Shown: positions 31,701-63,500 of the stretch, in pieces | Layout of the letters: each line of letters starts with the position of its first letter | Position numbering within the stretch: position 1 is the first letter of the stretch | DNA from: Siphonodentalium dalli | Lineage: Eukaryota > Mollusca > Scaphopoda > Gadilida > Siphonodentaliidae | DNA: 64,000 bases | Assembly (NCBI GenBank): GCA_032622095.1 | Contig: CP136065.1 | Location: forward strand, 40,613,503-40,677,502 | Reading direction: 5' to 3' | The notes under the pieces: model-generated | What the model was told of the DNA's origin: nothing | Databases searched by the model: none | Seen by the model: only the letters and a program-made list of their open reading frames with translations | Program-made: the position numbers and the translations under genes

Positions 31701-34700
31701 TCTGTTCTCAGTTTGTGACATTATATCGTATGTTTATTAGATAAATACGAATTACATATTCTATTTATCGTATAACAATGTCCAAAACTATATATGTCAA
31801 GATTATAATTGCGAGAATTTCGGCATCGCGTTGATTGACGCGCACGAATTTGACCTGCATTTAGTCAGAGATGCGGCTCGGCCCCCGGCTGCCATTCAGC
31901 CATTCAGAACACATTTTTGTCAACAAACCAATCAAATTATCGGAAGGTGATATGAATTAGTAATTGATATGAAATTGATTTATGACATAGTTTCCAACGT
32001 AAATAATGATTGAGTCATGTGATAAAATAATATATTATAGTATGATATTTATTTACGGAAGAAGTTTTCAAACAATAATAAATTTATTTAATGGGAGAAT
32101 ATTTCAATCAATAAACATCCCTATAGTACTATATACCGCAAACCGTATTTTATATATGCCTACTTGGAGTTTTTGTTTTTCTGTTTATGATCAGAAACGA
32201 ATACCGCGATCAAAGTACCATGCACATATTTTGTGTGGAGTTTCGTGGGTGACTTTTCAGTTGACTGATTACCTCTGAGGTAGGCCTACACGGCTACATC
32301 AGTTCTATGGGGAACTGTTATAGTGTTAATAGTTGTCACGATTGTGACGTTATATGCGCATGTATCTTCTCTTGGTCTCGAATGTTGTTTAAAGGCCCAT
32401 TTCATTTTCGAGTCACCGATTATTTTTATTATAGTGACTTGATATACGGTTTTAATAACAAAATTCTATGCCATAAAATATGATTAAAATACTATAATTC
32501 ATCACAATTTGAAACGTCTGTGTCTCAGAAGATGCCCATATAGAATTAGAAACCAGCTGAAATCATAGAAAGATTTCCTGCGTTATATGGCTCCCAAAAT
32601 GCAACATAATTCAAACTAAAAATGTATTTTCAATGGAAGGGGAATACTCTATATCTTAAGATATCGAGTTATTCCCCTTCCATTGAAAACAATGAAACTT
32701 GAGCACAGAACACCAAGTCGGTATCTCAACAAAAACAACATGTCCACGGTTTAATACACCGAATAAGTTGATAATGCAATGTTTTGGAGTTTCCTCTTTC
32801 AAACGGAATATAATATGGCATATATTTTATACAAAATTATCTGTGTGTTCGAAAATTAAGTGAGCCATCTCCTCTCAACTGAATGCTGCAGTTCTATATA
32901 AATATATAATTATGGGGTAACGTAGAATAGATTAAACAGTTCAAAATGACTATCTTTATAGATGCACATGCAGCGATTTAAATTATGTTATTGTTCTTAG
33001 AACATTTAATCAACTTGAAACAGATATCCTGATTTGCCATTGCTACCCGTTACTCAACCGCTGAATACAATTCGTTAACCAAATTATGACACTCAGGTCT
33101 ATTTTAGTAGACATTTTAGTTAAACAGATTTTTAGTGTTAATTCTTTGACTTTCTACAGTTCGGAGAACCTGTTGCCATCATACTAAAAAGCAATATTAC
33201 AGACGGCCATAGAGATTCTGTCAGGATAGAAATAGAAGGTGTCGAGAAACAGATCAAATTTAAACTGCTTAATTCAAGCACGATTAGGTTCAAGGCTCCA
33301 GGTATGTGTATACATGCGCATAATATCGAGTGTTGTGGTACGAGGCTCCAGGTATGTGTATACATGCGCATAATGTCGAGTGTTGTGGTACGAGGCTCCA
33401 GGTATGTGTATACATGCGCATAATATCGAGTGTTGTGGTACGAGGCTCCAGGTATGTGTATACATGCGCATAATATCGAGTGTTGTGGTATGAGGTTCCT
33501 GTCATTGTCAGCTTTATACAATAGAGGAACATGTAGCCGGGGCTTACTCAGGCTTTTTGCTGGTGCCCGAACAAAGTTGCACCCAACTCGTCAACAGATC
33601 AACAATCACAATCTTAACATTTCGCCTATATACATACTGTTTCTAATATTTAGCCTATATATACATGCTGTTCTTATTCGGCTAATAATAAACAAATTCG
33701 CCAATACTTTTAATTTACTCGTTATTGTTGTTATCGTTACAATTGTAGTATGCTATACTATTCAAAAATGGCACCATATAGTCTAGAGGGGAAGCGGCCT
33801 ATACGTTATACAATTAAGCTGATGTAGCGGTGGGTGACCCCTCATTTGCGAACTCAATTTAGAGGATAACTGTGGACATTGTGTTTCGTGATTGTCAGTG
33901 TTAAACATTTCTAAACTAACTGTATTCACCAAGTCATTTATAAGAAGTGTACATTGGAACGGTTTTTTTTTATTTGGAGGGATGTTACGGTGATAGCAGA
34001 AGACGACAGATTAATAAAAGTTCAGCACGAGACAAATTTATTGAGGGAGATGTTTAGATAATAAGTTCAACAAACGACTTATTACCTGAACGTTTCCTAT
34101 GGGATAACTACTCATCAATGCATGGTGTTTTATTATAGAAAGGGCTAAACTGATGATTTTCCTATCGCAAATTTAGAAGAGAGAAACGGATATTTGCGAC
34201 AGTAAAACCAGCAGTCTATCACTTAATGACACATTATGGACGTGTTCGGGTGCGTTAAACTGTTACTTGGTATTCAAGCACTGGGCGAATGTAGCATTCT
34301 ACTACAACGCCGAAAATCTGAAGCAAATCGACCGTACCTCTCCATATGGTGCGTTCATACACTGCATGACAAGTTTGCACGGTATGGTTTGCAGGCATTT
34401 TGTCGTAGAAAACGATATGGTACCAGAATATGAACGGAAACAAGCATATAAGATGCAACTGTATCACAGCTAACTACGCGCGATGTAAACTCTCTGTAGT
34501 TCCACCTGTAACGATGCTACCGGAATTTGCCTGTAAATAGCATGCAAGTATCTCGCAAGAATAGACCATACAGGTATTTGAAGGCAAATTACAGTAGCAC
34601 TGTTACAAGTGCATGGAACTACTTAAATTTTACTTCTCATGTCGTTAGCTTTGGTAAAGATGCATGTTATGTGCATGTTTCCGTTCATATTCTGGCACCA

Positions 34701-37700
34701 TGTGGTTTTCTATGACGAAATGCCCGCAAAAACATATCATGCAAACTTGCCAGCGTATGAACGTACCCATAGAAAACATTATCCGAACTACGCTCAATTG
34801 TAAATATTTACTTCTAGATTCGGGACGCAACTATATATCGGCGATAAAGTAACGAAAACGAGTTTGCCATCGATAGTGACTTAATTTAATTAATATATAA
34901 TAATGACAGTATGTGTTGTCAGTTTAGATTTAATATTTGTAAAAATAACTACTTTGAGCAAGATTATCCTCCATTTCTATTTGATCGCCCTATCGGAGTG
35001 TTTCACATCACGTTAAAGACACGGGCGGCGTTGGCGGTGGGTATGCTGTTAAAATATTCACCTCCGTCAAAAACCGCCATAAACAGAAATAATAGTAAAA
35101 TATAGACAGACCTTGTTCTTATACCTATCAGAAATATGGCATAAACAGTGTGTTATTGTCAAATGTTTTTCCTTTGTTGTGTAAACACAAGCAAAACATG
35201 TTACAGAACCTGGCTTTTGTTTAGATCCGGATATGGTACACGTAAAGAGCGTTCTTTGTTACTGTTTTCCTGATATGGAAATAATAAAGAGCGTTTATAT
35301 CATTTGTGTGTGATTATCCAATAGAATTGCGCTGTGTTATGTAAACAGAAGCAAAACTTCTGTAACACGAGCAGGTTCTTGTTTACATACACCATCGTAC
35401 GTATTGACGACAATATACTATTTACGCGCTGATTATGTTTAGCATATGAACAAAACTATATATATTTTAATATTCCTTCTGTTGATGGCGATTTGAACAA
35501 ATATGGATATTTCTGCAACGAACGCTGTCCGTGCCTTTAAAATAACATACCGTAAAATTGTTATCTCCATTCTAGTTCAAAATGTCAAAATTATTCATAA
35601 ACGTAAGTGCAAATGTCGCCTTGTCGACAACATATTTCAAGGGAATTCCGCCTTTTCTGGGAAGTACTAAATACCAAACAACCACCGACTGCTCTTTCTT
35701 CCGAGAAATTGTTCAGAATTAGATAAACGTAAGTTGAAAGTGAAAATATGCCGACTTTATAATTAAATGAAAACAAATTTGATCTCAGATGGTTGTATGA
35801 TCACATTGAAATATCAAAACGCTACCATGAAATATATAGAGGATCTACGAGGCCACAGTTTATAGCGGAATTTATAGAACGAGTCCAGAAAATTAGGTCT
35901 GACAGTGTCTTTGGCGAGTTTTGTGAATTCTGCTATAAACTGGGGACGAGTAGTAGATTATATTTATTATACATGATCTAAAACCTCGACAAAACATACT
36001 TAAATCAACAAAATGGGACGCGAAACTAACATCGGCTTCCATAAGACATGCGATGACGTTTCACGTAACTATGCGTTATTTGCCCGCGTAAAGAAAAAGG
36101 CCCAGGTAAATACAGGCTCTTTGTCGTATTTAATGGCGTATATTTAATTACAAGGCTTTTCAAACTCTTCATTATAGTTTGTTGAACAAATATTGGAAGC
36201 CATAGTATTTTGAGACATAGCGTACGGAATATAAACAGACGATACAGCGGGAGTCAAAGTCACCTGGCACTATTTCCTGATATTAAACGAACGTTTAATA
36301 TCACAATTTATAATAACGGTAGGATCATGTAATAAATATATACAACAGTATATATACATATAGTCTTGATAGTCTTAACATATTATTGTAACGTTAGTTC
36401 TGTATCCTTGGCTCAGGTTATGTCACTAACACATAATTCCATTTTTACAACAGAGCGACGGATGGACATTGAAAATGCCGCGTTAAAAGTCTTTATAAAT
36501 GACAAACCTGTCACAGAGGAGACTGAAAAGGTGAAAATGTCTTTGACGTACGTCAAACCCGAGGTGTCAGCGTTCCATTGTTTGCCGCTGTTGATGAGTG
36601 TATTCGATGTCAAAACGACGGAGGAATTGGATGAGATTCTGTGCAAAGATTTCTCCGACAGCTGCCCAAAAGACAAGTTACTGGACACGATATCAATGGC
36701 TGTAAAAGAACCAGGTATATAACTCAAGATTTAAAACAACCAGGTATATAACGCAACATTTAAAACAACCAGGTATGTAACTCAAGATTTTAAACAACCA
36801 GGTTTATAACTCAAGATTTAAAAAAGATAGTGCTGTGAAATAACCAGGTATATAACTCAAGATGTAAAAAAGATACCACCAGGTTTATTTTTTTAAATAA
36901 AAAAAGAGAGTGCCGTGAAACAACCAGATATATAACTCAAGATTTAAAAAAGATACATCAAGGTATATAACTCAAGATTTAAAACTGATAGTCCTGTGAA
37001 CCAACCATGTATATAACTCAAGATTTCAAACAGTTTAATGTACAAGTGTACATTGACATATATAACCGGGTCCAGACAAACACGCCTATTGCGGGGGTGA
37101 AGGAGAAGATCACTCGATCAGTGATTTTTTTTTAGATCGCGGGTATGGATTTTGGAGAAATTATCACGTGACTTCCGGTTAGCACCCGTGTGGAGATTGC
37201 AAAAAACGCGGAATTGGGAATGAAGCATCGCGATGAAAATGAAAGTAACTAATTCACAACTTAAGAAGAATTCACATGTGATTTAGGTATATTAATTTCA
37301 ATTGGACCAATTTCTTTGGTTAGCTTAATGAAAACGAAAAATGAAGACGTCATGACACGGTTTCTGAAGTCATTTTGGATTTGTGGGCCAGAATCCAGAC
37401 AAGATTGCACAATCCGCGACACGTCTTGTCATGTTGGCTGTCATTTCCGTCGTGATCACTGCGTTCTGTTACATAATTATTCTTAGCGCTATGTCGCCGA
37501 TAAAAGGCAAATTTGAGGAACAGCATGTGTGGTTGCTCCACTACGTGTCACGTACGATTCATATTAGTGGATTTGATATAGTCATGGAATAAACACCTAA
37601 AAAAAAAAATTAAGTCCCCCAAATATATGAGGCTATATTTTCAAAGATATGGGTCAGATTGCTATGAAATTTGGCACAGGTACTCATCACGATCTGATTA

Positions 37701-40700
37701 ACTGTTTCCGTTACGAAATGGTAGATTTCACACAGCACAGCACAGCATCGAAGACGCATGTCCGGAAATGCTTCTATCGATTAATATTGATTATATTTAG
37801 AATATTTTCGGGTCTAAAAACGTGTGGTTGTTTAGCTAACGAACAATAGCGGTGACTGTTAACAGGGACCAGAAATGTTATTGTGTAATTTTGTCACAAA
37901 TAAACGTTAATTAGACTCATTGGAATACAACAATACAATCAATCCGGGGCATTTGACGCTCGGAACGTAGTTATGAGAACAGCCTAATGGTCTCTGTCGC
38001 CCGCCTGAATGGTTTGTTATAAAAATAGAACAAAAATGTCCCAATTAATCATTTCATTTCATAATAAAATATTCGAAATAAAATCAATATTAATTGATAG
38101 AAGCGTTTCCAATCAGTGGTCTTCAATTCATATTTATTATTTTATACCGACGTAACTATTTCAAATTTGTTATTTAAAGAGATAATCCATCTTTAACAAT
38201 ATACTAATCATATTGAAAGATTGAGTGGATCCTTACCAAACATGAAATGCATGCGATGGTGACCACTTGTAAAGGGACGTCACTCCAGGGAGTCATATTC
38301 GCACCTTACTCGTATTTAAATTCGCGCAGTACTATTTTTCGCGCACCCATCGGTACGCGAATTTAAAACTGAGCGAAAAATAGTACGACTCCTGAGTTTC
38401 AACTAATTAACCACAGGGAAAACAAGATCGAGGGTTAATTGTTGATGAGTTACACGCTTTACGAAAGTTTGGACACTGAATAGACATTTACGCCTATATA
38501 CGTGTAGCCCTATATTTACATTCGGTCAACCAATATAAAAAATCATTATTCAATGCCATGCAAGCGACGTACAAATCATGGTAACGTCGACGACGTTGAA
38601 ATGCTTGTAAGAAATACACATATTCTAGATTGCATGTGCATGAAAGCACGTCCCCTATTCACCACTCTGGAGTGAACATACAGTATGAGTTAGTTAGGTC
38701 ATCTCAACCCACAGCCAAGTGTTGATTTTTCTGGAGTCAGTTTCCTTCTCGGTTGTGGTTTTCTGTTTTCGAGTTTAATTCATTAATGTCCATGCAGTCC
38801 GTAACTATTTCAATATCAGAATAATTATTTGGAGCATATAAACATCCATCATCGCAACAAAATTATAATGCATTTGTGGTTTACATGATGTAAAGCCGCT
38901 GTGATCGTGTTTAATATACTCAAGTATCTTCAGATCCACGACTTTTATGAAAATATATTTGTCAGTTTTAAATTCGCGCATATACGTGCGCGAATTGAAA
39001 GTGCGCGAATTCAAAACTGAGCGAAAAATAGTACTGCGCGAATTTAAATACGAGTAAGGTACATACAAATGTGGTAAAAATTGATTTTCGGACTTGTGTG
39101 AGCCAAGGTGGGCTAAATGTAATAAAAATACTGTGTGATGTGTCCTTTGACATTTAAGTGGAATGCAGACTGATTTCGCACGCATTGGATGCTAATTGAC
39201 CAATATAAAAATTCACAATCCTCGAAAAATAAGCTGATACACGTGGACAGTCAAAGTTTTAACATGGGATAATTTCCATGTCATGGTTGTTTGGTGCTGT
39301 GCTCGACTGGGCATTATATACCGAGAAGCATATTCCTATGCATATTACTCGAAACAGTATACAGTAATGCCCAAAGTAATTGACGACTTAACCACAGCAG
39401 AATTATGGGTAATTTTTCAGGATTTAGTCGGAAATATGGCTTGTTGCCATTCATCGGAAAGCTCTCGGCGAGAGCTTTCCTATGAATGGCAACAAGCCAT
39501 ATTTCCGACTAAATCCTGAAAAATTACCCATAATTCTGCTGTGGTTAAGTGGTCAATTACTTTGGGCATTGCTGTATGTGCATGTGTACATTGGTATTTC
39601 ACAGGAATTCTGCTTGACTTAGTCTCCCCCATATCACCATTAACCCAAAGCGCGTGCACATATTGTTAAATTTTAGACTATAGGACATTTAAAGCTAGGC
39701 CTGTTCTTAAATAAACCTAGATTTCGGTGGGTTCTTCGAAGAACCAACTTAGGATTTGGTTACAGATGGAACCAAAGCAGTGTGGAACCAAACTCTTTAG
39801 TTCTATATTGGTATTTGGTTCCATGTGGACCCAAATTGGGAGCTGTTTTCTTAGAGTGTGTTCTCGGCCTGTTCTCGGCACTAGTGGATCACACATTAGT
39901 GCATGGTATAGGTTACAAGAACTAATTATATAGAGTTACGCTTCTTGAAGTAGTGTGATTCGAGTCAGCATGACAACAAATTCTGGCCTCTGATTAGTCG
40001 ATTATCATGAGGGAAGTTTCCCAGAAAATCATAGCCTGCGGAAATATGGCGATAATTTATGTTTAGGTGGCCATGCACGAAGAGTCTGGTGGGGTTCCTA
40101 TAAGTTACGGAAGTTGTCTGGGTATTGTATGCTGCTGAGTTTTGTGCAGTAAATGGGGTAATTGTTGAAATGCAAGAATATCGTTTGAAAAAAAATACCT
40201 ATAAGGGCGCGTTTGTTGTCACGTGCAGTCTGGTGTATCGGATGACGTTCTAATGGAAAAAAATGACCACTTGAAGCTCAAATAGGCTTAACCCATGGCC
40301 GGCGGGACTTAGGTAACGCTGTCGCCCATGGAATATAATTAGTTGTTTGTAACATATACGGTTTGTGAACACATCACGAACGCGGATTCTAATGCATCCG
40401 TAGAGGGTCTACCATTTGTGTTGTATAGCGCATGGGTCGATCGGCACCGTATAAACCATTATTATGAATTTATGCACATGATTATATTATGCGGAAATCG
40501 CTATATATAGAGAGGGTTCTTCATGTAAATATATGCACATTTGATGCGAATGAGAATTAATATATAGGACGCGTTGATTGGCTGAGTTGTAGTCTCCAGA
40601 TTTTTCTTAACCGCGATTACCACCAAAATTCAGCTCTGGTTATTCTTTTTCACAGAAATACAAAGAAAATCAGAGGACTTCTGTCCAACCCTCCTGCACT

Positions 40701-43700
40701 TCGCGGCCTATTACGGGTTAGATGAGCTTGCGTCATGCTTGATGGAATCTGCGTACGGCCCGCGAGCATTCATGATAGAGAACAAATTCGGTCACAATCC
40801 TGGTGATCTGGCAGACTTATCCGGCCGCGAGCGTCTCGCCGAGTACTTCCGTTCTTATATGGTTTGTATGACATCACTCCCTTTATTATCTTAATTATTA
40901 TTAGAGGAGCGAATGTTCTTAGTACCCTTTATGTTCTCAATATATTGTTCTATATTCAGATTTAAAAATATGGGATGAAATCAGATGAAATGACTATTCT
41001 TTTAATGTAGCAATGTTCAGATGATATGATACGCTGTTTACGTTTATCACATAATTATAGCTCCTAAACACGGCCTCATATTTTTAGTGATACACATGTG
41101 TATTATCGGCACGCACAGTGACATAAGAGCTTTGCACAATGATATCGATCAATTATGTCAATTAGAATATAATTATGATATTCAATTTGTGCTGGGCTAT
41201 TTACTGTTGACTATGAACTAGACATTGCGTGATAACGATGGTTGAACAATTTTGTCAACATGAAAAGACACATTTAAAATGGAACTAAATTTTTTCTTGA
41301 AATTGTAATGATTTCCCATTTGGTTGTGATCAGTAAATCAATATTAATTGTGTTGAACCCCAGCCGTTGCGAGATCGTTTTTCCTTGCTAAAATGTTATT
41401 ATGTGATAAACAGGATCTGAAATATGTCGCAATTCTATTCGAAATGTATTAACCCTTTACCCAACAGAAGGGCCCTGTGCCAATGCATTCTCTTATATAT
41501 GCGAGTCGACCATAGGTCGCCTCGCATATATAAGAGAATGCATTGGCTTAACACATTAAAAATTATAAAATTGTTAAAGAATGTAAGAAAAAATGGTAAA
41601 AAGTGTTAAAAAAGATTGTTTTTAGGCCAATGCATTCTCTTATATATGCGAGGCGACCTATGGTCGACTCGCATATATAAGAGAATGCATTGGCACAGGG
41701 CATAACTGTAACTATCACAATGTGGTCAAGGAGCCGGTTCCAATGATATCCATATTTGTATGGTTCTATTGAGACAGACCGAAGATATTTTAGGCTGTTG
41801 AAGCTTTATTTGGCCGGTTTTGGCCGGTTTTGGCCGGTTTGTTGGGTAAAGGGTTAATCTCGTCCACTAAATTCAATCCGAGCCTCGCTTTTATAGGCTT
41901 GCTGTACGTTCTTACACTGGCAAGTTAGTACGGCATTCTGTCGCACGCATTTCGGTACAGAAAGCTACAATATGCCAGAAACCGAATGTAACAATGCTTA
42001 TAAAATGCATCCTCATCACAGCTAACTACATGAGAAGTAAAAAAAACTATGTAGTTCCGCTATAGTAGCGACACTTTCGAAATTTGCGTGTAAAGATCAT
42101 ACAGTTATCTCGCAAGAATCAACCATACAGGTGTTTTAAGGCAATGTGTTATTTGCACCGTTACCTGTGGAACTACCGAAATTATTCTGCTCATGCCGCT
42201 ATCTTTGGTAAATATGCATTGTATATGCATGTTGGCGTTCATATTCTGGCACCGTATATATGGTTTTCTTTGAGAACATGCATGTCTGCAAAAAATGCCG
42301 TGCAAGTTTGCCCACACGAGAGGACGCCAATCGGTTGCACAGAGTATGGTCACGATGTACACCACATTCACGTAGTATAAGCTAACATTTTCCCATTTCA
42401 ATAAAAAATGCCATGCCAGCCACCTCGATGGTATATATTACACGTCTACCCGGTTAGACTGGCATAACCCATGTATATGTACACTGTATTATTTATCTAT
42501 CAGTTTCATATCCAACTCTCCGATGTCGGTCATTTGATAATTAATCGTGTATGATTTTCCACAGGCTATGAAAACTGTTACAACCTCTTATGTAGATATG
42601 TTAAAACCACAAGACCTATACATGGCACCATCGAGTGGAACGGGTACGTAATATTATATTTCGTTCGCTATGGCTATTTTCATTTTCTATTTGGTGTAAA
42701 CAATATTTATTCTCAGTTCATGTTTTTACATACATATATATTTTGACATACATATGTTACAGAGAGAGAGAGAGAGCGAGAGAGAGGAAGAGAGAGAGAG
42801 AGAAATAGAGAGGGGAGGGAGAGAGATAGAGGTAGAGGCAGAGGAGAGATAGGGAGGGAGTGATAGAGAGGAGAGAGAGAGTGCGAAAAAGAGAGGGAGA
42901 GAGAGGAGAGAGATAGCGAGAGATAGATAGGAGAGAGGAAGCGAGAGAGAGAGAGAGGGAGGGAGGGAGAGAGAGAGAGGATAGGATAGAGGGAGATAGA
43001 GAGAGAAAGAGAGAGAGAGGGAATGTATAGTTAACCTACATATAACACCAGGCGCAAAGTGCGTCTGATCTAAAAAAAATTATATAGAAACAGAAACCAC
43101 ACAGAAACCCGTCAACTTAATTTCTAAACAATCAATTTACTGCTAAATCCAGGAAAATATCACTACGTAATTATTTTTAACACTGGATATAACGAACCTT
43201 TGAAATGAAATATATCATGAGTTGTAAGAATGACTGAGTGATATGACGATGAGTTGTAAGAATGACTGAGTGATATGACGATGAGTTGTAAGAATGACTG
43301 AGTGATATGACGATGAGTTGTAAGAATGACTGAGTGATATGACGATGAGTTGTAAGAATGACAGTGATATGACGATTAGTTGTAAGAATGACTGAGTGAT
43401 ATGACGATGAGTTGTAAGAATGACTGAGTGATATGACGATGAGTTGTAAGAATGACTGAGTGATATGACGATGAGTTGTAAGAATGACTGAGTGATATGA
43501 CGATGAGTTGTAAGAATGACTGAGTGATATGACGATGAGTTGTAAGAATGACTGAGTGATATGACGATGAGTTGTAAGAATGACTGAGTGATATGACGAT
43601 GAGTTGTAAGAATGACTGAGTGATATGACGATGAGTTGTAAGAATGACTGAGTGATATGACGATGAGTTGTAAGAATGACTGAGTGATATGACGATGAGT

Positions 43701-47282: not shown

Positions 47283-47337
<55 letters not shown>

Positions 47338-50300
47338 CATTTAATTATTGTTGTGTTGCAAACCATTTCAATTTACCTGACCATGGTGTAAGATTCCATT
47401 TTAGCTTACAGCCAACAGAACAGACACAAATTCTAACCGAGGAGGATGAAACTTAATTTAAATGCTTGGTACGCGAAAATCATTGGATGGCTTTCTCAAA
47501 ACAGATCGCCCTTTTGGATTGAATATCGAATATATTTGCATGTGACTCGTCAGAAACACCCGTGCTTCCCTCTATTGTTCAATCGCCAAAATTTCGAAAT
47601 CGCAAGCATTTCCAAACGCAATTTCACATATTTAAACTCCCAATTGCCTGTGATTCTCGACACACGGGTGATTACATCGCAACATTCTTGGTCGATAAAA
47701 TATGAGTCATGTTGAAAAATTATTAGCAGTAAATGTTCTTCTCATAATCGTTCATGTCTCAATGACAAATCTTAAACTCATTAGCGAGTTCCAAAGATGC
47801 ATTTAGGTAAGAAATCACACTGAGCCCGTTCATGCATACTTAATCTTTTCACAATATATAATATATATATATATATGGAAGTACCATGGTATAGTATTAT
47901 TGTTATGTCTTGGTGCTTTTTATATGTACTTTTCCCAAGTGAACCAGTCGACCGATTGGTAGTAACCTGATCCACCAATTACTCTCTACTACAGGGCAAG
48001 AGTTATACACCAATATACCAGAAAATAGGTATATATCCATGAATAATACTAAAACAAGAAGCCAGTCACCCGAGGAACGTTATATGCCAATGGGTGGTAT
48101 TCTTATTCCCAGTATGACAGAAGAGGAGGAATACGAAATTCTCGGACATAAGGCGTATCCCGTCCCAGAAACGAGAAACGAAGGTATTCTACATATATAT
48201 AATTGCCCGAATACTGTTTTGCTTCAAGAGACGTAATGTACCTATACATATTCTACTATATATTTTGAGACTTCCGTATACATGTATGTGTGTGTATATC
48301 CTTTATAGACTCGAAAACGACTCGACCGATTGAACCCAAACATCCTATCTAATGGTAAAACTCCACGAGAAGTGTCATCGCACCGCTTCTGAGGACGTCC
48401 GAGCACTCCTCCGCCATTCGTCCTGCCACCGTGGTTGGAATTGATGGGTTAACCATCAATAATTAAAGAGCGTTCGTATCTGCGGTGTCGTTGTTAAAGA
48501 GCGTTTATATACACGAGTATAAATACGGCTCAATGGAAACTGGGCATATCGAGACGAAATTTCGTACTTAGGACTTCCAAGGGACGGGGCAGATTTTCGT
48601 CGGGTCAGTTTGTCCGCCTGAGGTGACCTTGACCTTGAAACGGGTACCCACAAATGCCCTTGGGCGATATCTCGGTCGTCAGCGGCGACATCGACGTGAA
48701 ATTTGTTATGTATGGTCAACTCGGGACGGGGAATATTTTTGTCGGGTTATTTTGTCGTGCCTGTACGGGATTACATTGAAAAACAAAATTAATGGATCGA
48801 CCAAAGCCATGGGACCAAACCCGCCAGTGGCGGGCTAATCTGCTAGTATATATATGATTAAACTAATTTAACTGGGGGAATGACCGTTGGAAATGAAGGG
48901 TCTATAAACGCTCTATACCTTTTGGTTTGCATTTTCGGTCGTTTTCATCGGTTAGGCTCCTTAAAATAGCCACATGCAATTAATTTGACGAAATTGAAAT
49001 TATATTTCGCGATTTTTCTACACCCCCCCCCCTCGCCATTGTATGCTACCAGTCCTGACGGTGCTGAAACTGTCTTACTCTCAATCGGAATGTATATAGC
49101 GTTTCTATAAATAAGACCTGCGATTCTGAGGAACGGTACCCACCGAATTTAACTTCTGTTTAAACATGAACTGCTGAACGTGCATGGCGGGTGGTCAAAC
49201 TGTGTCTCGAGGCCGTCCGTCTCCTCGCCGTTTTCCTGTATGTTCCCTCGGTTCCATAAATCCCATGTACAACCTCTAGCATGTGTAAACCTGAGCTCAG
49301 TCGAATGTCTTGGTAAGTAATTTTAGTATGTAAACTACTGTCAACACCTGGTGGTTTTAGAGGCGTCCGTGCCGGAACCTGCGCAAATCATAAGCAACAA
49401 ATATCTCAGGTGTTCTTTTACAAATCGGCCTGTACTTATGTGTGTGGTCCTCAAAGATATACCTCAAGATGTTGTCCAAATTTGGGCTGAAGCGGAATTT
49501 TTGTTCATGTGTAATATTCATTTAAGCTAAAGTCAACAGGAGTCAATCAGATCTAACCAACTCCAGGAAAGGCAAGATAAAATTTCAACACTCGTCACTG
49601 GAAAGCGAACACGAACCACTACGTCAAACCCCAAGTGAATTCATGGGAACGAAAGGACCAGGCAAAGGTACAGCATGCATATATCATATCACATATACAT
49701 TTTGAACTGTCATAGGTTATACGAATACTTAATATTTTTTATTAAAACTGATTATTTGAAAAATCTTCCTTTGTTCAGTGCATTTACCACAATATGGTAA
49801 GAAATTTTCCGCATCTTCTGTTATTTACATATCTGACATAATTATCCTATCTTTTCTGTCAGGTTTCGGTCTATTGTATCGTTTCTTTTCAATCGCCAAT
49901 TTGTAAGTTCATACACTGGCAAATTGCACTGCAAACTGCAAAAATGCCATGCCCGGTTGTCGTTTAGTATAAGCTGGCATTTTTGCCGGCTGCCGACTAG
50001 CTCGTGCTCCGTCGTGGCTGGCTGACAACAATCAACGATGTTTGTGATAACGGCGTGTACCTATTTACCGGTTATCACAAAACGAGGCCACTAACAATAA
50101 TTGCTGGTGTCCCCGTTGTCCTTGGTACGAATTGTGTATCAGAGAGGGGCATTGCTAGAACAGTTTGTTCTCTGCGATTGTCATACACACTTAATTATAC
50201 ATGTATACGCTTCGCCGTTATTCGCGAGGAATCTCATGACTGGGTATAAAGAGTCCCGAAAGTGGTAGTTCTCAAGTCAGAAATGTTGGAGCTAGCTAGG

Positions 50301-53300
50301 GGAAGGGGGCTGGCAAAATGGACACAAACAGGGTCGCCAACTGCACAAAACGCATATAAGATTAATGGAGGCACGGACTCAGTATGAGTATTCATTGTAT
50401 CAAATGTGCTTTATTCAATGAGCTTGAACAAGTTCTCATTTATTATCGAAATTGCCACGTATCGAACGGAATGGCACATTGAGAGGTCCCGATTTTCGCC
50501 CATATAAGGGTTGGAACCCGTGCCAACATCGTGTAGCCAAGACTGCGATGATCGCATCCACTTTATTGATATAACATAGTTGTTTTGAAAGTGATGTTGC
50601 TTGTGTCATGGTGTGGGTCTTGGCAGTAGTGATACTGGTTAGTCTTTGGCATTGATAAAGTATATACATTTATACAACTATTCAGTCAGTTATGATGTGC
50701 ATATGCATAGGCTATTATTACGTAAATAATAATAGGCTGACATAAAGCATAAAAACTACAATCTAACTCGCATGGACAAAGCCGGATAGCCCAGTTAGTT
50801 AACCATTTAACCAACAGAACGGCCATGTGCCAATGCATTCTCTTATATATGCGAGTCGACCATAGGTCGCCTCGCATATATAAGAGAATGCATTGGCTTA
50901 ACACATTACAAATTATAAAATTGTTAAAGAATGTAAGAAAAAATGGTAAAAAGTGTTAAAAAAGATTGTTTTTAGGCCAATGCATTCTCTTATATATGCG
51001 AGGCGACCTATGGTCGACTCGCATATATAAGAGAACTAGCAGGGTTACCCGGCGTTGCCCAGGTTAATGCGATGTGAAACCATCTGTATGCTGTGGATAT
51101 TTGTTGGGAATAGAGAACACTCTTGTTCAAAGTGTTATACGTTTTCTCATAAATTGTATATTCAAATAGCATCACACAACATGATTATTACAGTCATGGA
51201 ATATAAGTAGTGGCCCACCTTGTCAATTGTCATTCTGTTTATCGCGATTAATCCGTTCCACCAATAATGAAGTATTTATTTATTTACAACTGCGTATACG
51301 TCAGACGTTATAATATGATACATGGAAATCATAAAGACATTAGTTCGCATAAATAAAAGATGACAATTGGGTTTTACATATTGAGATGTATCAATCAATC
51401 TAGTGGGTTGGACTAAGATCTCGAGGATACCTGGCTATCATATCTCCATGAAAATACAGATGTTTCAAAGAAATGTCCAGGTGCTCGTCTGTTTATGGTG
51501 CTATATATTGGCTAAATATTCTCAGTTTCAACGAAATGTTGCTGCGCCTGCATATCAGCTACATTTGCCAGACACAGAGCGAGATTTTGAGTTGTTTATG
51601 TCAGTCGATGAGTCTGTTCTAAACCCCTTGTCAGGTGTCAGTATTGGGAGGATCCTGAAAAGTCATGTGCTACTAACTGCATTGTATTGTATATCAGAAG
51701 AAACTATATATGACTGCACACTGCGACCACTATTTTTGAACAGGCCTTCCATATATCCTGACAAATTGTAACTTTTTTGTGGAAACTGTATTGAATGGAA
51801 CAGACTCAAGTTTGTTATAATATATATGAAATCCTCTGACGGTTCGAGGTCTCTCAGTTTGCACGAATATATGAATCTCTTCAATAGAATGATAAATATA
51901 CGTTTAATGCTTCTTCTATGTATCTCTTTTTGCTAGCTCATTGTGTGAATGTCCTGATTGCCATCCCCATATAAATATGACAATTAAGAAGATATAATTG
52001 TTCAAGTGACTTATAAGTGGGTTACCATTTGTCGGGATTGTGAAATGTGAACGCCCAAATCTCCTTTAAATGATATGGAGATGGCCTGGGTGACTATATA
52101 TAACTTATATATGGATAACGGCGAATAGCAATCTTATCTATATGAAATTGGTGAAAATTGGCGAGTATACAAATTTGTATCAAATTGAAGGTCCCCATAT
52201 CTCTCACACATAGGGCACCAATTTGTTGTGTCTAAACCGCACGATAAGATTCCTCGTATCACGGAGAATAATATGTATCAATCTGGTGGATATCGGCACT
52301 AAACATATAGATATAATGTCCCTCTCATATCTATACACCACTGACTCGAATGGCCCCGCTTATGACATCCTTAAACCACACAATTACACTCCTGATATCA
52401 TGGAGATGATTGTTTATAAGTTTGGTGATAATCGGTGACTAAACAATGTTTTTTTTTTATCAAATTTGGTGCCAATCCCTCCCTCCCCATCTCTCAAATA
52501 ATCTATGTATCTCTTTTTGCTAGCTCATTGTGTGAATGTCCTGATTGCCATCCCCATATAAATATGACAATTAAGAAGATATAGTTGTTCAAGTGACTTA
52601 AAAGTGGGTTACCATTTGTCGGGATTGTGAAATGTGAACGCCCAAATCTCCTTAAAATGATATGGAGATGGCCTGGGTGACTATATATAACTTATATGTG
52701 GATATCGGCGAATAGCAATCTATCTATGATAGTGCATATCCGCTCGCCATCCGTGACGCAAACGACACAAAATGTGATTTAATTCATGGTATATCATTAG
52801 ATAAAAACATGTATGAATTTGTTGGAAATTAGTGCCAAATATATTTGTATCAGCTTTTGCCTCTTCGATTGTACCGCGTGAAGTTATATATAGAACACAC
52901 AGACAGACAGAAAGACAGACAGACAGCACACTTTGATTTCTTGTATCATTTGAGAAGAACGTGTCTGAATTTGATGGTAATTGGTACTAACAATATTTTG
53001 TATCAGTTTTTGGTGACCCTCCCGTCCCTATTTCGGACTCAAGCTGCACACACTAAGACTCATTAGAGATTAGAGATGCATATATATATGAAATTGGTGA
53101 AAATTGGCGAGTATACAAATTCGTATCAAATTGAAGGTCCCCATATCTCTCACCCATAGGGCACCAATTTGTTGTGTCTAAACCACACGATAAGATTCCT
53201 CGTATCACGGAGAAGAATATGTATCAATCTGGTGGAAATCGGCACTAAACATAAATATAATGTCCCTCTCATATCTATACACCACTGACTCGAATGGCCC

Positions 53301-54257
53301 CACTTGTGACATCCTTAAACCACACAATTACACTCCTGATATCATGGAGATGATTATTTATAAGTTTGGTGATAATCGGCGACTAAACAATGTTTTTTTT
53401 TATCAAATTTGGTGCCAATCCCTCCCTCCCCATCTCTCACACAAACAGCACCACTATGGCGTCTTTAAATCACACGATCAGATTCCTCGGATAAGAAAGT
53501 GTATCAATTTGGTAGAAATTGGCGCCAAAAAAATTGTGCATCAATTTTGGTGCCCCTGTCCCTTTCAACACACCCCTGACTCGAATGAGGCCACACTTGA
53601 CAGATATAAGCCATAACCATTAGACTCCTCATACCATGGGGATGCTTTTGTATAAGTGTGGTGGCAATCGGCGACTAAACCAATTATTATCAAATTTAGT
53701 GCCCACCCCCTCCCAATCTCTCATCCAAACGACAACAATTTGGCGTTGTTAAATCGCACAATTAGATTCCTTGTATCATGAAGAAGAATATATATCAATT
53801 TGGTGGAAATCGGCTCTAAAATTAGTTTTTATCTATTTTGGTGCCCCTCTCCCCTTTCGTGCAAATCAGACTCGAACGACGCCACTTTTGACATATTTAA
53901 ACCACACCGTTGGATTCTTCATATCATGGGGATGATTATATGTAAGTTTCGTGGCAATCGGCGACAGAACAAAAATCTGCCCCCTCCCCCATCCGGGCAC
54001 CCCTGACGCGAACGGCGCGACTTTTGCCATATTTAAAACACACCATTAGATTCCTCATATTATGGGGATGATTATATATAAGTTTCGTGGCAATCGCCGA
54101 CAAAAAAAAATTCTGCCCCTCCCCCTTTTCTGCCCCTGACAACAACGGCGTCACTTTAGAAAATTTTAACCCCGACCATTATCTTTCTCGTAAAAAGTTA
54201 CTCCTAGTAGACCCCTTTGGCATCATCTTGATGGTCCCCTGTGAATTTCTATAGAAC

Positions 54258-54304
<47 letters not shown>

Positions 54305-57300
54305 TTCGCAAATATAGATATAGACTAGCAGGGTTACCCGGCGTTGCCCAGGTTAATGCGATGTGAAACCATCTGTATGCTGTGGATATTTGTTGGGAAT
54401 AGAGAACACTCTTGTTCAAAGTGTTATACGTTTTCTCATAAATTGTATATTCAAATAGCATCACACAACATGATTATTACAGTCATGGAATATAAGTAGT
54501 GGCCCACCTTGTCAATTGTCATTCTGTTTATCGCGATTAATCCGTTCCACCAATAATGAAGTATTTATTTATTTACAACTGCGTATACGTCAGACGTTAT
54601 AATATGATACATGGAAATCATAAAGACATTAGTTCGCATAAATAAAAGATGACAATTGGGTTTTACATATTGAGATGTATCAATCAATCTAGTGGGTTGG
54701 ACTAAGATCTCGAGGATACCTGGCTATCATATCTCCATGAAAATACAGATGTTTCAAAGAAATGTCCAGGTGCTCGTCTGTTTATGGTGCTATATATTGG
54801 CTAAATATTCTCAGTTTCAACGAAATGTTGCTGCGCCTGCATATCAGCTACATTTGCCAGACACAGAGCGAGATTTTGAGTTGTTTATGTCAGTCGATGA
54901 GTCTGTTCTAAACCCCTTGTCAGGTGTCAGTATTGGGAGGATCCTGAAAAGTCATGTGCTACTAACTGCATTGTATTGTATATCAGAAGAAACTATATAT
55001 GACTGCACACTGCGACCACTATTTTTGAACAGGCCTTCCATATATCCTGACAAATTGTAACTTTTTTTGTGGAAACTGTATTGAATGGAACAGACTCAAG
55101 TTTGTTATAATATATATGAAATCCTCTGACGGTTCGAGGTCTCTCAGTTTGCACGAATATATGAATCTCTTCAATAGAATGATAAATATACGTTTAATGC
55201 TTCTTCTATGTATCTCTTTTTGCTAGCTCATTGTGTGAATGTCCTGATTGCCATCCCCATATAAATATGACAATTAAGAAGATATAATTGTTCAAGTGAC
55301 TTATAAGTGGGTTACCATTTGTCGGGATTGTGAAATGTGAACGCCCAAATCTCCTTTAAATGATATGGAGATGGCCTGGGTGACTATATATAACTTATAT
55401 ATGGATAACGGCGAATAGCAATCTTATCTATATGAAATTGGTGAAAATTGGCGAGTATACAAATTTGTATCAAATTGAAGGTCCCCATATCTCTCACACA
55501 TAGGGCACCAATTTGTTGTGTCTAAACCGCACGATAAGATTCCTCGTATCACGGAGAATAATATGTATCAATCTGGTGGATATCGGCACTAAACATATAG
55601 ATATAATGTCCCTCTCATATCTATACACCACTGACTCGAATGGCCCCGCTTATGACATCCTTAAACCACACAATTACACTCCTGATATCATGGAGATGAT
55701 TGTTTATAAGTTTGGTGATAATCGGTGACTAAACAATGTTTTTTTTTTATCAAATTTGGTGCCAATCCCTCCCTCCCCATCTCTCAAATAATCTATGTAT
55801 CTCTTTTTGCTAGCTCATTGTGTGAATGTCCTGATTGCCATCCCCATATAAATATGACAATTAAGAAGATATAGTTGTTCAAGTGACTTAAAAGTGGGTT
55901 ACCATTTGTCGGGATTGTGAAATGTGAACGCCCAAATCTCCTTAAAAAGATATGGAGATGGCCTGGGTGACTATATATAACTTATATGTGGATATCGGCG
56001 AATAGCAATCTATCTATGATAGTGCATATCCGCTCGCCATCCGTGACGCAAACGACACAAAATGTGATTTAATTCATGGTATATCATTAGATAAAAACAT
56101 GTATGAATTTGTTGGAAATTAGTGCCAAATATATTTGTATCAGCTTTTGCCTCTTCGATTGTACCGCGTGAAGTTATATATAGAACACACAGACAGACAG
56201 AAAGACAGACAGACAGCACACTTTGATTTCTTGTATCATTTGAGAAGAACGTGTCTGAATTTGATGGTAATTGGTACTAACAATATTTTGTATCAGTTTT
56301 TGGTGACCCTCCCGTCCCTATTTCGGACTCAAGCTGCACACACTAAGACTCATTAGAGATTAGAGATGCATATATATATGAAATTGGTGAAAATTGGCGA
56401 GTATACAAATTCGTATCAAATTGAAGGTCCCCATATCTCTCACCCATAGGGCACCAATTTGTTGTGTCTAAACCACACGATAAGATTCCTCGTATCACGG
56501 AGAAGAATATGTATCAATCTGGTGGAAATCGGCACTAAACATAAATATAATGTCCCTCTCATATCTATACACCACTGACTCGAATGGCCCCACTTGTGAC
56601 ATCCTTAAACCACACAATTACACTCCTGATATCATGGAGATGATTATTTATAAGTTTGGTGATAATCGGCGACTAAACAATGTTTTTTTTTATCAAATTT
56701 GGTGCCAATCCCTCCCTCCCCATCTCTCACACAAACAGCACCACTATGGCGTCTTTAAATCACACGATCAGATTCCTCGGATAAGAAAGTGTATCAATTT
56801 GGTGGAAATTGGCGCCAAAAAAATTGTGCATCAATTTTGGTGCCCCTGTCCCTTTCAACACACCCCTGACTCGAATGAGGCCACACTTGACAGATATAAG
56901 CCATAACCATTAGACTCCTCATACCATGGGGATGCTTTTGTATAAGTGTGGTGGCAATCGGCGACTAAACCAATTATTATCAAATTTAGTGCCCACCCCC
57001 TCCCAATCTCTCATCCAAACGACAACAATTTGGCGTTGTTAAATCGCACAATTAGATTCCTTGTATCATGAAGAAGAATATATATCAATTTGGTGGAAAT
57101 CGGCTCTAAAATTAGTTTTTATCAATTTTGGTGCCCCTCTCCCCTTTCGTGCAAATCAGACTCGAACGACGCCACTTTTGACATATTTAAACCACACCGT
57201 TGGATTCTTCATATCATGGGGATGATTATATGTAAGTTTCGTGGCAATCGGCGACAGAACAAAAATCTGCCCCCTCCCCCATCCGGGCACCCCTGACGCG

Positions 57301-57547
57301 AACGGCGCGACTTTTGCCATATTTAAAACACACCATTAGATTCCTCATATTATGGGGATGATTATATATAAGTTTCGTGGCAATCGCCGACAAAAAAAAA
57401 TTCTGCCCCTCCCCCTTTTCTGCCCCTGACAACAACGGCGTCACTTTAGAAAATTTTAACCCCGACCATTATCTTTCTCGTAAAAAGTTACTCCTAGTAG
57501 ACCCCTTTGGCATCATCTTGATGGTCCCCTGTGAATTTCTATAGAAC

Positions 57548-57582
<35 letters not shown>

Positions 57583-60500
57583 TTCGCAAATATAGATATA
57601 GATGCATTGGCACAGGGCATAACTGTAACTATCACAATGTGGTCAATGAGCCGGTTCCAATGATATCCATATTTGTATGGTTCTATTGAGACAGACCGAA
57701 GATATTTTAGGCTGTTGAAGCTTTATTTGGCCGGTTTGTTGGGTAAAGGGTTAATATATCTGAGCATTCTCATGTAAACCTATTTCAATTAAGGCAATAC
57801 TTTACCATCAGGGACGTGTGTCAGGGGTGGATCCAGAAAGTAAAACATTTGGACATTTCATGCCTGACACAACATTAGTTAGAAATTTCCGACCAATATA
57901 GTTTGATTTTGTGCTCATAATTTGATATACCAAACAGTACTGTAGTAGGTGTGATATTTGTTGTTATTATACAGAAAGACCGAATTGTTTTACTGAAGTA
58001 TAGCAATCAGTTGAGAATTATCAACTTTAGGGGTGTTACGATGGGATATCAAATAGTTGGACAGTTTTATAATAGATATTCAGATTAAATCATGCATGTA
58101 TGTTACAATGGGGACATTTCATGCATACAGTGGTAATTTTGTTGAGTGAATTGCCAATCATGGATGTTAGGTTAGGAATTTCCATCGACAGTTTTAAAGC
58201 TTGTGGTACCAGTTAAAAAACACCAATACAAGGCGGGTGGGTACCAATGGGATTTCTCCGTTGAGTCAAGTGCGGACCCACCATATACCCTCTCTATGTT
58301 GCGTTTATGGTACTCATATATGAGCAACATCCCATCGATGGAACTGGCCGCGCAGCGATCTCACATTCCAACTTATCAAGTAACATTATTTTGACTGGCC
58401 TAAGAATACCAACACGCACTGTGTTCTTAATATATTGTGAACAACTCAGCGATATCACCAGTCACGCTAAAACCTCTGTCGTTCATTGATCACAACTAAC
58501 GCTGATTTGTTGACAACTGGGAGAAATTAATCCGTTTTGGCAATTTTGCAGCTGGCATTTTTGCAGTTTGCAGTGCAATATTGCCAGCGTATGAACGTAC
58601 CCTTACCCTTATTCCCCTTACATATCTGGTAAATTATTTTGAAATATTAAAGGGGTACTGTACGCCAAATGTTGTTGTTGGTTTCTATAGTCTCCGAGTC
58701 GGAGAATAAGGTAACAATTTTTCCATTATTTGAAAGTCTGTTGAGTACGAAGTCATGTTACGGATGACAAATTTACCGGAATGCAAAAATACAAATTGTC
58801 GTTGTCGAGTAATTTTTGTAAAGGTTTCAACCAAATGAATCAAATAAAAGTTATATTATATGCATACTAGTCCCATATAATCATTTAAGTTATTGTATCA
58901 TCGCTAGTCAGTGAGTGGCTTGAGTGTTCTCCCCGTATCATCATAATATTTTAAGCGATCGTGTGTGCGATCGGTTTAACAATCCAGTATCCCTCAATTA
59001 CTGTTTTTGATTACGGTAATTCGTAATTTAATTGACGCCATTTTATGGGTCCAGTCATATATTCAATTTATATCAAATTATTAACTTTTAAATTATTAAA
59101 TTTTAAGATAGCCTATTAACCTGAGCGTTTACAGAATACATCTTCGACTCAAATTACTTATGTTTCTATATATTATCGATATTAGATCGTTGTTGTCACC
59201 GGAAATTTAATGAAAATGGCGTACAGTACCCCTTTAAGCTTAAGATATTTTTGACATGGGCAGGGTATTTCACTGTCTGTTATATTTTTGTCTACGACTG
59301 TTATTTTTAACCACCACTTAGCCGGGTGAATTTATTTAACTAGACAAATGGATATCTTGGTCCATGGGAGATGGGACTTGATTGGACCAAACATGACCTA
59401 GATTTAACAACCCAATCACTGATATACAAGAGAAACTATGTGTGCCGTTGAATACATGTTTGCTATATATAGCTTCTAGGATCATATAGTAGTTTGATAT
59501 CTTATCAATTTATAGTTTATATAGGTGTTAGACTGTCATATGTATATATGATGTTACCCCTTTTTGTCTACGTAATGATGTTTATAGCAATTACTAGTGT
59601 GTTGGTTGCATATCTCTATATGATTATATGTATGATACTGACTAACCCTCCTCTAACATTTGTTGTTACCTTTGAGGAATATCGTATCACTCGACATGGT
59701 TTAAATACATTTGTAATCATAATGGGACCAAAGACTTGAAAATAAAAAATATATATTATTATTGAAAAGGTCACCACATAATTAATGTTGTCATTCTAAA
59801 ACGTTGGAATTGTATAACATAAAAGAATAAAAACAAACCAATAATGAACAAGTTGATGCCTTAATATGGCACCGCTTGTTTCAACTGTGTTATTTTATAC
59901 ACTAGAAACTGAAAATAAAGCACATCATAATTCGGTCTTGAGCTCTGTATAGCATGTTTAACCCTTTTTATACCAAATACTCGTTGACTTGTGTTCCCTT
60001 ATAGGAACTATCCAGTTAACAGGCTATATAGGCAGTTTCTTTAACTTGTTATCTGATTATTTCCCACCAATTAATAGGAATCCATCTGCACTTGTATTGC
60101 CTGTATTTATCGTATGCCTGTCGTCTGCTCAAACACCATGAATATCCCCTCAGATGAAGAATATACCATTCAAATGCTTACAATTATAAGTGATCTGAGA
60201 TTCTATTTTGTAAAGAACGGGTTAATATTCCTTTTTTCTTTTCTTTTAGACATAAAAGAGCCGTTGGTTATGGGCTCCAGTGCCTTAGCTCAGTTGGAGG
60301 AGATAAGACAGTCATCCAAGGAGGGCGTTTACACGGAGGACGAAGCTCTGCGTTTGTACAATCTCTGGAAAGAACATTATGGCGAGGGCACACGTTCCTT
60401 CAAAGAAAGAAGGGTATGCATTTAAAATATGCAGGGCTATAAACGCCCTTTTTACTGGATACGCATTGACTATAGGAGCTCCCTTAGAACGTTTTTAGAT

Positions 60501-63500
60501 AATATAAGTTCAACAAACTTAGGTCGTTAGAATATGAACCTTTCTGCACTTGTAGAGACCCTCTAGCCATGTCCCTGTGGAAGGCGAATAACTACTAGGT
60601 TTAGTTCAAGGTTTTATTGCCCCGACCCCGACTCCATCCCTGACCCGGACTTTGGACACTTTAAACAGCACACACTGACTAATTCACCGAATGATGTGCA
60701 CGCATTAGATGCTCCTGTATTATCCGGAAACAAACATTTGGTTTGGAGTGATGTTATTGTCGGCACTCAAAGCAGTTTCCGTGAGAAAACACAAATCATA
60801 GCTAAGAAGCAGGCAACATAAATCGTAGCTGCAATAAGCGTGTAGACATGTATATATGAATTTACAAGTGTTGTAAGGAATACTTCTGCAAATTCGATGA
60901 CCAGGTCCGGGCAATCAATCTCTTGACCAATAGAAATGTAGGACCACATGAGATGAGTAGATAGAAGGTCGTGTGCAAAGCTAAAAGTGCAACGTACATT
61001 ACTATTAACTCATGTCGTGCCGGTTATTGTGATAAATGTCTCGCGTACTGCGGAATATATTGATATTATTAACGTTGATTCTATTATGTATGTAAATGTA
61101 ATTTAGTCTGACAAAGTCACCGTATAACATATAGACTACTGTATATTCTTCTCCCATGCACTGCTACGTTTTTGGTTCTTGTTTTATTATGCCATCGACC
61201 CCGAAGGTGGTTCGGGGTATACATGTAGTCGAGGGCTCAGCCGTCCATCAGTCTGTCCAACGCTCCGTACGAACTTATATATCTCCTAACTCGCGTGTTA
61301 ATTATCCGATTTCGTTTGTTCTTTGGCATTGTAATAGCACTGCTGTCGGGAATTACCCATATACTAAAGGTTTCTCCATTCATTTTTACCACAGCTACGG
61401 CTCTTTATTATTTGGACATTTGTGAGTTTAAAACATTTAATCTTGTAACTCGGACATGGATCATTTGATTTGGTTGCTTTCGCATGTTGACAACACGCCT
61501 TGGGGAAATGATACCACATACTACGGGTTTCATTCATCTTACCAGAGTTCCGGCCCTTGTTTGACTTGGTCAATTGTGAATGTTGTGTCCGAAAGAACAT
61601 TTTAGCTTGTACCTTGGGCAATGGTCATCGGATTCAGTTGTGATTTGGCATGGTGATAGCACAGCCATGCATTTTTACAAGATTAACTTGGGCATGGATA
61701 ATCGGATTTGGTTGTGCTTTGGTATGTTGATAGCCCAGTTTAGGAGGAAAGGGGACTTATTTGCGCACGATGTTCGTCCATTCATTGTTACCATAGTTAT
61801 GACACATGTTGGGCTTAGGATTATGTTGGATTTTCACTCTGTACATACATTTTATATTGTAACTTCAGTGGCAAAGGTCAGACTTGGATGTTACTTCGAA
61901 TACCAATAAATCAGGATTGATTGAATGATATCGACATGTTTTGTCCATGTATTGTTATCACAGTTATTGCCCTTGATGGAGATAGCAAGAATCTCCATCT
62001 TTGCTTCACATATATATACCATTGCTACTCAAGTACCAACATAATTGTTATAGGTCAATATGAGAGAAAGGATCCTTTCATTTTCTCAGAGTGATGGACC
62101 TTCTTGGCTTTGAACAAATATTTTTGTTTTCCATCCATACACATATCTAGTATGAGCGTCGGTGCATTATTGTTATAACTATATATAAATTCACATATAT
62201 ATCTACATAATTGCTGCTATGTTTATAAGGTTGATGTTTTGTTTCCTTTTTGCTTTTTATCTGATTTTTAAACTGTTTCTTTTCTTTTTTGTTCATGTTC
62301 GCATTTGTTTTCAACAGGAGGCGCTTGAAAATCTACGGTATCGGTTTTATGAAAATAGTAAGGATGTTGACCAGTTGAAGAAGTGTTTCCACAACGCAAA
62401 GAAGAACAAGAATCAACGAAAGAATCTACAGAATATCACAATAACGGTAAGCGAGCGCCAAATATCGTAATGGCGATAAGTGAACATCGATTATGAAGAT
62501 ATTCAAGATAATGTAGCATAATTAAAATATCTAAATAGCGGTGAGCGAACGCCAAATATCTAAATATCGGTAAGCGAAATCCAAATATCTAAATAGGGGT
62601 GAGCGAACGCTAAATATCGAAATATCAAAGTTACCATAAGAAAACACCAAATATCAAAATAACGGTGTAAAGCCAACTACAAATATAATAACTAATTAAA
62701 GGTGAGCGGACGCCAAACATCGAAATGTCGGTGAGCGAAATATCTGAATGAGGATGATTGAACATCGATTTGAACATCGATTACGTTTAGTCTGATGCCA
62801 GCACTTAATGCGCATAAGATTGTCCACAGTCCACTTATAAACGGACAATCCGTACCTAAAATGATCGTTAATTAATGGACAATCCGACCACGCGTGGCAC
62901 GCGATCTTGGGATTGTCCACTAAATCACGACATATATTGATAATCATGCATGTTAACTTCATATTAAATCTGAAGGGTAATAACTCTATAAAGAATGTAC
63001 CTTTATTAAATAACGGAGATTTGTATGAGAAATTTGCAACACCACAACAGATAAACTCCTGTGAAATAAAAGTCAAATTCTTCCCTTGGGTGGGTGGGCT
63101 TGGGGGAGGTTTGGGATACGCTCTTTAAAAACACTTCTTCTTTAAAAACACTTCTTCGAATATTTCCGTTATTTCGTCAAAAACCCTTCTTCAATTATTT
63201 CCGTTATTTGTCACAAACACTTCTTATACAAATCGCCGTTATTTAGTAAATTAACATTCTTTATAGAGTTATTGCCCTTCATATTAAATATGAAGCTAAC
63301 ATGCAGGATTAGCTATACATACATGCCACCATTCATTTCCATTTCAGCTCATTATATCTTGAATGGGAAACAAAGGATCTAGTCACAACGATTTCGCTTA
63401 TATTCTTGTACAAATTTATACCGTAATATGTTTACGGTTAAGATATTCTTTATTGCCCCCTTATATATGCATGTTCACCAACTCACATACATATTATTTA

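Follow-up and report, generated by a model that had tools for sequence, protein, structure and literature searches.

Tandem arrays across donor splice sites of a putative BCAP/BANK-type adaptor gene and of further genes in the same genome

Minisatellite-like tandem copies of exon-intron boundaries, termed mirages, were previously described for lancelet genes, namely Adh3 and the globin genes BflGb6 and BflGb9 (PMC3087553) as well as PGBD5 and the troponin C gene (PMC3902484). According to the portions of these two reports considered here, lancelet mirages are found in several genes and at either boundary, have units of 10 to about 160 bases and vary in copy number; for some of the genes, reverse transcription polymerase chain reaction (RT-PCR) or transcripts point to regular splicing (PMC3087553, PMC3902484). 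In the present study, a stretch of 64,000 nucleotides (referred to as the window) was analyzed, in which a gene read as encoding a BCAP/BANK-type signaling adaptor carries tandem arrays across the donors (5' splice sites) of its introns 2, 3 and 10.

The arrays represent a kind of structure that is already known from the considered portions of the lancelet reports, since the structural features checked were all found: minisatellite-like tandem copies of the boundary, occurrence in several unrelated genes and at donors as well as acceptors, and splice signals within the copies. Beyond what those portions contain, the present analysis provides an estimate of prevalence (15 of 204 sampled donors) and a test of whether arrays exceed uniform placement. 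Splicing, which is backed by RT-PCR or transcripts for some lancelet genes, is deduced here from reading frames. Among the matches listed by a literature search that covered the early literature in part, no report on mirages outside lancelets was found. The arrays also resemble the Rogers model, in that a tandem duplication at the boundary supplies splice signals, but differ from it by their many copies and their location inside an apparently existing intron. Furthermore, the human UBC gene contains a tandem array of dual-specific AGGT splice sites that delimits coding units and is variably spliced, as stated in the part of the source considered (PMC10809524). Although AG|GT sites in tandem within a gene are common to both systems, most of the copies tested here break the reading frame, and AG|GT, expected at each copy of a dual-specific array, occurs at only 9 of the 17 donors, the other 8 having no AG before the GT.

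Arrays at the donors of the window gene

Seven donors of the window gene could be defined. Three of these (33302, 36715 and 62447) are located inside tandem arrays, the repeat units of which include 9, 12 and 15 exon bases, respectively. The arrays, partly delimited with Tandem Repeats Finder (TRF), are as follows:

33293..33499, + strand: array at the donor of intron 2; 50 bp x 4.1 copies, 97% matches; unit of 9 exon and 41 intron bases
36703..37030, + strand: array at the donor of intron 3; 29 bp; unit of 12 exon and 17 intron bases; overlapping TRF rows
62431..62766, + strand: degraded array at the donor of intron 10; 29 bp; unit of 15 exon and 14 intron bases; TRF core at 62525-62624

Within the intron 2 array, the donor CCAG|GTATGT recurs at 33302, 33352, 33402 and 33452. 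A genome search with this array, skipping common words, returned one place only, on the basis of which a dispersed-repeat origin was rejected for this particular array. The intron 3 array keeps its 29-bp register through the first four copies and is irregularly spaced afterwards. Eight sites within it match the donor-containing core at 18/20 or better, and there are seven AGGT donors including the first one (six CAG|GT and one AAG|GT), while the core at 36922 has lost its GT (AACCAGATATAT). For intron 10, TRF by itself reported only positions 62525-62624, 78 bases off the donor. This third array is real though degraded, because its first, donor-bearing copy (62431-62459) shows 23/29 identity to the TRF unit and ten places with starts from 62431 to 62738 match the unit at 19/29 or better, compared with a background (window positions 1-62000, + strand) of two places at 18 or more, the best one at 20.

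No TRF array was detected within 60 bases of the donors at 28717, 40862, 48184 and 60414. The preliminary description of this DNA, which had introns 2, 3 and 10 opening with arrays that hold the last exon bases and the donor, was thus confirmed, with the qualification that the intron 10 array is degraded. Its statement that the other seven introns are free of such arrays holds for four defined donors, the remainder lying outside the seven definable ones.

Prevalence and placement of boundary arrays in the genome

The source assembly (2,226,750,531 bases in 9 contigs) was sampled by means of exons from family searches, which yielded 123 kinesin, 85 myosin and 89 dynein matches. Eleven of the 123 kinesin rows were dropped as presumed near-identical paralogues (nine of them belong to a family that is 96-98% identical at one exon), and the other 112 were merged to 109 loci. 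These and 31 of the 85 myosin rows were taken with 350 bases per side. In the case of dynein, 10 of the 89 rows were dropped as presumed paralogues and 79 were merged to 76 regions; the first 60, taken with 600 bases, gave 64 rows, 63 of them with a complete exon stretch. The sample was confined to these three families; ABC transporters, with just 19 rows, and protein kinases, whose matches stemmed largely from a single tandem cluster, were left out. An array was counted when its TRF score was at least 80, its period at least 15 and when it crossed the called splice site. Sampling based on exons may favor loci with repeated exon words; the control positions originate from the same loci.

In total, arrays were observed at 15 of the 204 sampled donors, 12 according to the rule and 3 by eye. 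Kinesin and myosin genes contributed 13 arrays at 140 donors (11 by rule; L009 and L108 by eye, with the donor re-picked), and dynein genes 2 at 64 donors (one by rule, of 63, and one by eye, L149, the exon of which is cut by the stretch). The two rates do not differ significantly (Fisher P 0.15). At acceptors, the rule gave 5 of 140 for kinesin and myosin (L139 being doubtful) plus two borderline cases (L078, L103), and 2 of 63 for dynein; clear by eye were L096, L101, L114 and L135. Moreover, two further clear mirages (L004 and L005) were obtained by pattern search. Based on these counts, the window gene is best regarded as one instance of a pattern that extends across the genome. The idea that its three arrays share a cause is supported in this respect, the cause being genome-wide (15/204 donors) rather than specific to the gene. 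The argument that three arrays in one gene exceed chance is weaker than first proposed: the probability of at least three among ten donors is 0.032 at the rate of 15/204 and 0.058 at the kinesin/myosin rate, which is modest for a gene chosen for showing arrays.

Placement was evaluated against a null model in which each array is positioned uniformly in its arm and may reach one period into the exon (200,000 simulations). Excluded from this evaluation were a dynein acceptor array whose period of 263 is beyond the limit set for periods, L121 because of the overlap rule, and the dynein exon that is cut. Arrays of at least 2.5 copies crossed donors 11 times, with 2.23 expected and 5 located inside the arm, and none of the 200,000 simulations reached 11. 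Acceptors were crossed by 5 such arrays (2.19 expected, 10 inside the arm, P 0.04). At a threshold of at least 1.8 copies, the corresponding values were 13 seen against 5.27 expected for donors (21 inside, P 0.00065) and 6 against 3.2 for acceptors (18 inside, P 0.083). It is thus chiefly the multi-copy arrays at donors that account for the excess. The preliminary description had named a lack of enrichment at donors as evidence against it; for multi-copy arrays, enrichment is present in the sample.

These values also bear on plain chance overlap, according to which minisatellites of a repeat-rich genome fall randomly into introns and overlap donors at no cost. Array coverage is approximately flat, with 11 of 140 at the donor and 10-13 of 140 at 30 to 210 bases into the intron. 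Likewise, two-copy duplications are present in intron interiors, as are some multi-copy arrays (5 on donor arms, 10 on acceptor arms), and the 64-kb window alone gave 42 TRF rows, as would be expected under random placement. However, the flat coverage results largely from arrays starting within the exon, and a count by array starts gives 11 donor crossings for multi-copy arrays instead of the expected 2.23. Chance overlap is accordingly regarded as rather improbable.

Origin of the arrays and fate of the additional donor copies

The arrays are likely to be mirages, i.e., tandem duplications straddling the boundary that were later expanded and homogenized. As suggested by the units, a tandem duplication across the donor would have been followed by expansion via slippage or unequal exchange. 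Judging from the reading frames, the first, exon-side donor would then be used, whereas the other copies would be spliced out together with the intron; the additional copies are best interpreted as intronic DNA that is tolerated. As shown in the sample, the process acts on numerous genes and affects donors as well as acceptors. Expansion or retention appears to favor the boundary, because donors show more multi-copy arrays than expected. More tentatively, a mutational process in a probably spiralian lineage may expand short tandem duplications preferentially at exon-intron boundaries, donors above all, with the spliceosome picking the first copy; such a lineage-wide, boundary-targeted process would produce natural arrays at about 7% of donors, with the number of near-identical donor copies ranging from 2 up to at least 13. 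The data also allow the dullest reading, namely neutral duplication that is best visible where a conserved exon anchors one copy.

Several points weigh against the interpretation as expanded boundary duplications. The use of the first donor is deduced from frames and not from RNA. Splice sites were assigned with a consensus matrix, except for three donors that were picked by eye. The threshold of 2.5 copies was set after the first sample had been viewed, and the excess is smaller at 1.8 copies or more. Taken by itself, the dynein sample shows arrays at only 2 of 64 donors and multi-copy arrays also inside introns. By rule, 12 of 203 donors and 7 of 203 acceptors carry arrays, a difference without statistical significance (P 0.35), and the notion that acceptor arrays are rarer was not upheld. 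Finally, the five distinct loci inspected from the pattern search comprise only two clear mirages, besides one dispersed repeat (L002 and L003 being two copies of it) and two unclear loci (L209 and L212, whose same two arrays also gave L210-L211 and L213-L216).

The units of the donor arrays include 4 to 72 exon bases, and unit edges show no fixed relation to the splice site. This breadth represents evidence against an involvement of RNA ends and against slippage beginning at the exon edge, and the earlier proposal of strand slippage from exon edges is therefore unsupported. An exon-leaning unit is not claimed, since the outcome varies with the way in which array starts are determined: mixed readings gave a mean of 32 exon versus 17 intron bases (n = 20, Wilcoxon P 0.022) and TRF starts only gave P 0.013 (n = 12), whereas a single uniform start rule gave 27 versus 19 (n = 17, P 0.29). 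This possible lean is one of the observations in favor of intron birth, in which the arrays would be remnants of introns that arose from tandemly duplicated exonic AG|GT segments, as in the Rogers model, with copies added later. One dynein unit is nearly entirely exonic by its TRF start (51 of 53 bases), and intron gain from mirages was proposed by the lancelet authors in the part of the report considered (PMC3087553). Since the units are partly intronic, the arrays continue into other intron DNA and AG|GT is present at only 9 of the 17 donors, intron birth is considered very unlikely.

Of the 17 donor arrays, 5 have a period divisible by three, as expected if the frame is ignored. Each of the 14 additional donor copies checked in the window disrupts the frame, two by a shift and twelve by being located behind an in-frame stop. 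Regarding the sample, splicing at the second donor copy would lead to a frameshift or a stop in 9 of 11 cases, and the frame would stay open in L103 and L109. The view that each extra copy is a potential decoy donor is a fair one, with the restriction that all 14 copies tested in the window lead to a shift or a stop. Donor strength was compared by means of the consensus score, giving a median of 2.8 for mirage donors versus 3.6 for other donors and means of 2.9 versus 3.1. Weak donors as a cause of the arrays were rejected because of the lack of a clear score difference.

These results are also relevant to the assumption that the donor copies are selected as back-up or regulatory donors for robust splicing or isoform tuning. 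The multi-copy excess at donors and the retention of the same array in three paralogues would agree with selection. However, consensus scores do not place mirage donors clearly below the other donors, most of the extra copies tested disrupt the frame, periods disregard the frame, and a late core of intron 3 has lost its GT. Taken together, selection for the copies is given very little credence. The three paralogues mentioned are kinesin genes with 96-98% identity. Following the same exon end, their common array comprises 11.5, 14.5 and 14.5 copies with 10, 13 and 13 exact donor cores, a spread that would be expected from length changes of the array subsequent to gene duplication.

Further repeats were observed near some of the sampled boundaries. 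The kinesin exon of L206-L208 is associated with a 69-bp array ending near its acceptor and a 30-bp donor array, and a further 37-bp array with 28-35 copies is located upstream. Palindromic short elements of two kinds begin up to about 120 bases past the array in L004, L013, L095, L107 and L206. Within 200 bases, an inverted-repeat score of at least 20 was reached at 5 of 17 mirages versus 19 of 189 control donors (Fisher P 0.033, with a cut-off chosen afterwards), whereas a rank test gave P 0.29; L052 was omitted because its tail was too short. A palindromic element as trigger of the arrays is thus a lead only.

Lineage, window gene and further repeats

The joined two-exon muscle-myosin fragment from L131 and L121 matched 3i5f best (262 bits), followed by chains with 256-253 bits, compared with 238 bits for Myosin-7. 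We take 3i5f to be a squid chain and the chains with 256-253 bits to be scallop ones. Lancelets usually possess genes of the green fluorescent protein (GFP) family; a genome search, conducted without a positive control, found no GFP-family match. Likewise, a molluscan haemocyanin domain was not found in a genome search without a positive control. On the whole, the genome is taken, on weak evidence, to be probably non-chordate and likely spiralian.

If the genome is non-chordate, mirages would extend to a new lineage. Their occurrence outside chordates would in turn mean that boundary-spanning minisatellites represent a genome process that recurs among lineages instead of being peculiar to lancelets, and the excess at donors calls for a mutational or retention mechanism. 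How one of several identical donors in tandem is chosen has been investigated mainly in engineered constructs. Provided that about 7% of donors are natural arrays, such a genome would offer a many-gene test of whether the exon-side copy always wins.

The BCAP/BANK-type identity of the window gene is a putative one, read from the open joined frame and the DBB match. Joining exons 1-4 results in an open frame of 415 codons (415 aa), and the deduced protein matches the Pfam domain DBB (Dof/BCAP/BANK) with E = 9.1e-7. A match to TIR_3 (Pfam) reached 16.5 bits and is below its cut-off of 26.1, and residues of about 339-413 of the joined protein matched designed ankyrin-repeat proteins in the PDB. 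The following exons and probable exons were defined:

28081..28716, + strand: exon 1 (from the first ATG), TIR-like region; open frame; donor 28717 without array
33160..33301, + strand: exon 2, within the DBB domain; 3' end CCAG|GTATGT
36454..36714, + strand: exon 3; 3' end AACCAG|GTATAT
40656..40861, + strand: exon 4, ankyrin-like; donor 40862 without array
47995..48183, + strand: probable exon with the motifs YISM and YMPM; donor 48184 without array
60250..60413, + strand: probable exon; donor 60414 without array
62318..62446, + strand: probable exon; 3' end ATAACG|GTAAGC

The gene region also contains a near-identical tandem duplication (about 51385-54304 and 54674-57582, offset by 3289-3290 bases), the blocks of which repeat open reading frames (128 aa at 51385 and 54674) and TRF rows. 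Two minisatellites are located away from the defined exons, one at 43217-43986 (32 bp x 24.1, 99% matches) and one at 923-1264 (34 bp x 10, 92% matches).

Genome-wide pattern counts were obtained for CAGGTAAGT x3 (807+685 versus 144+137 for the backward control) and CAGGTATGT x3 (1291+1651 versus 504+267 for the backward control). Both ratios were not used, because many places among the matches listed are overlapping matches in single satellites. Satellites at C1:231.98-232.05 Mb and C1:15.566-15.571 Mb, with units of about 26 and 45 bp, carry a perfect donor word (CAGGTAAGT or CAGGTATGT) in their units. Furthermore, a tandem cluster of protein kinase matches was observed at C2:149.83-150.60 Mb, comprising more than 80 near-identically scoring matches, mostly with one open frame of ~281 aa. 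A cluster of muscle-type myosin heavy chain exons at C4:274.2-275.5 Mb suggests tandem gene copies.

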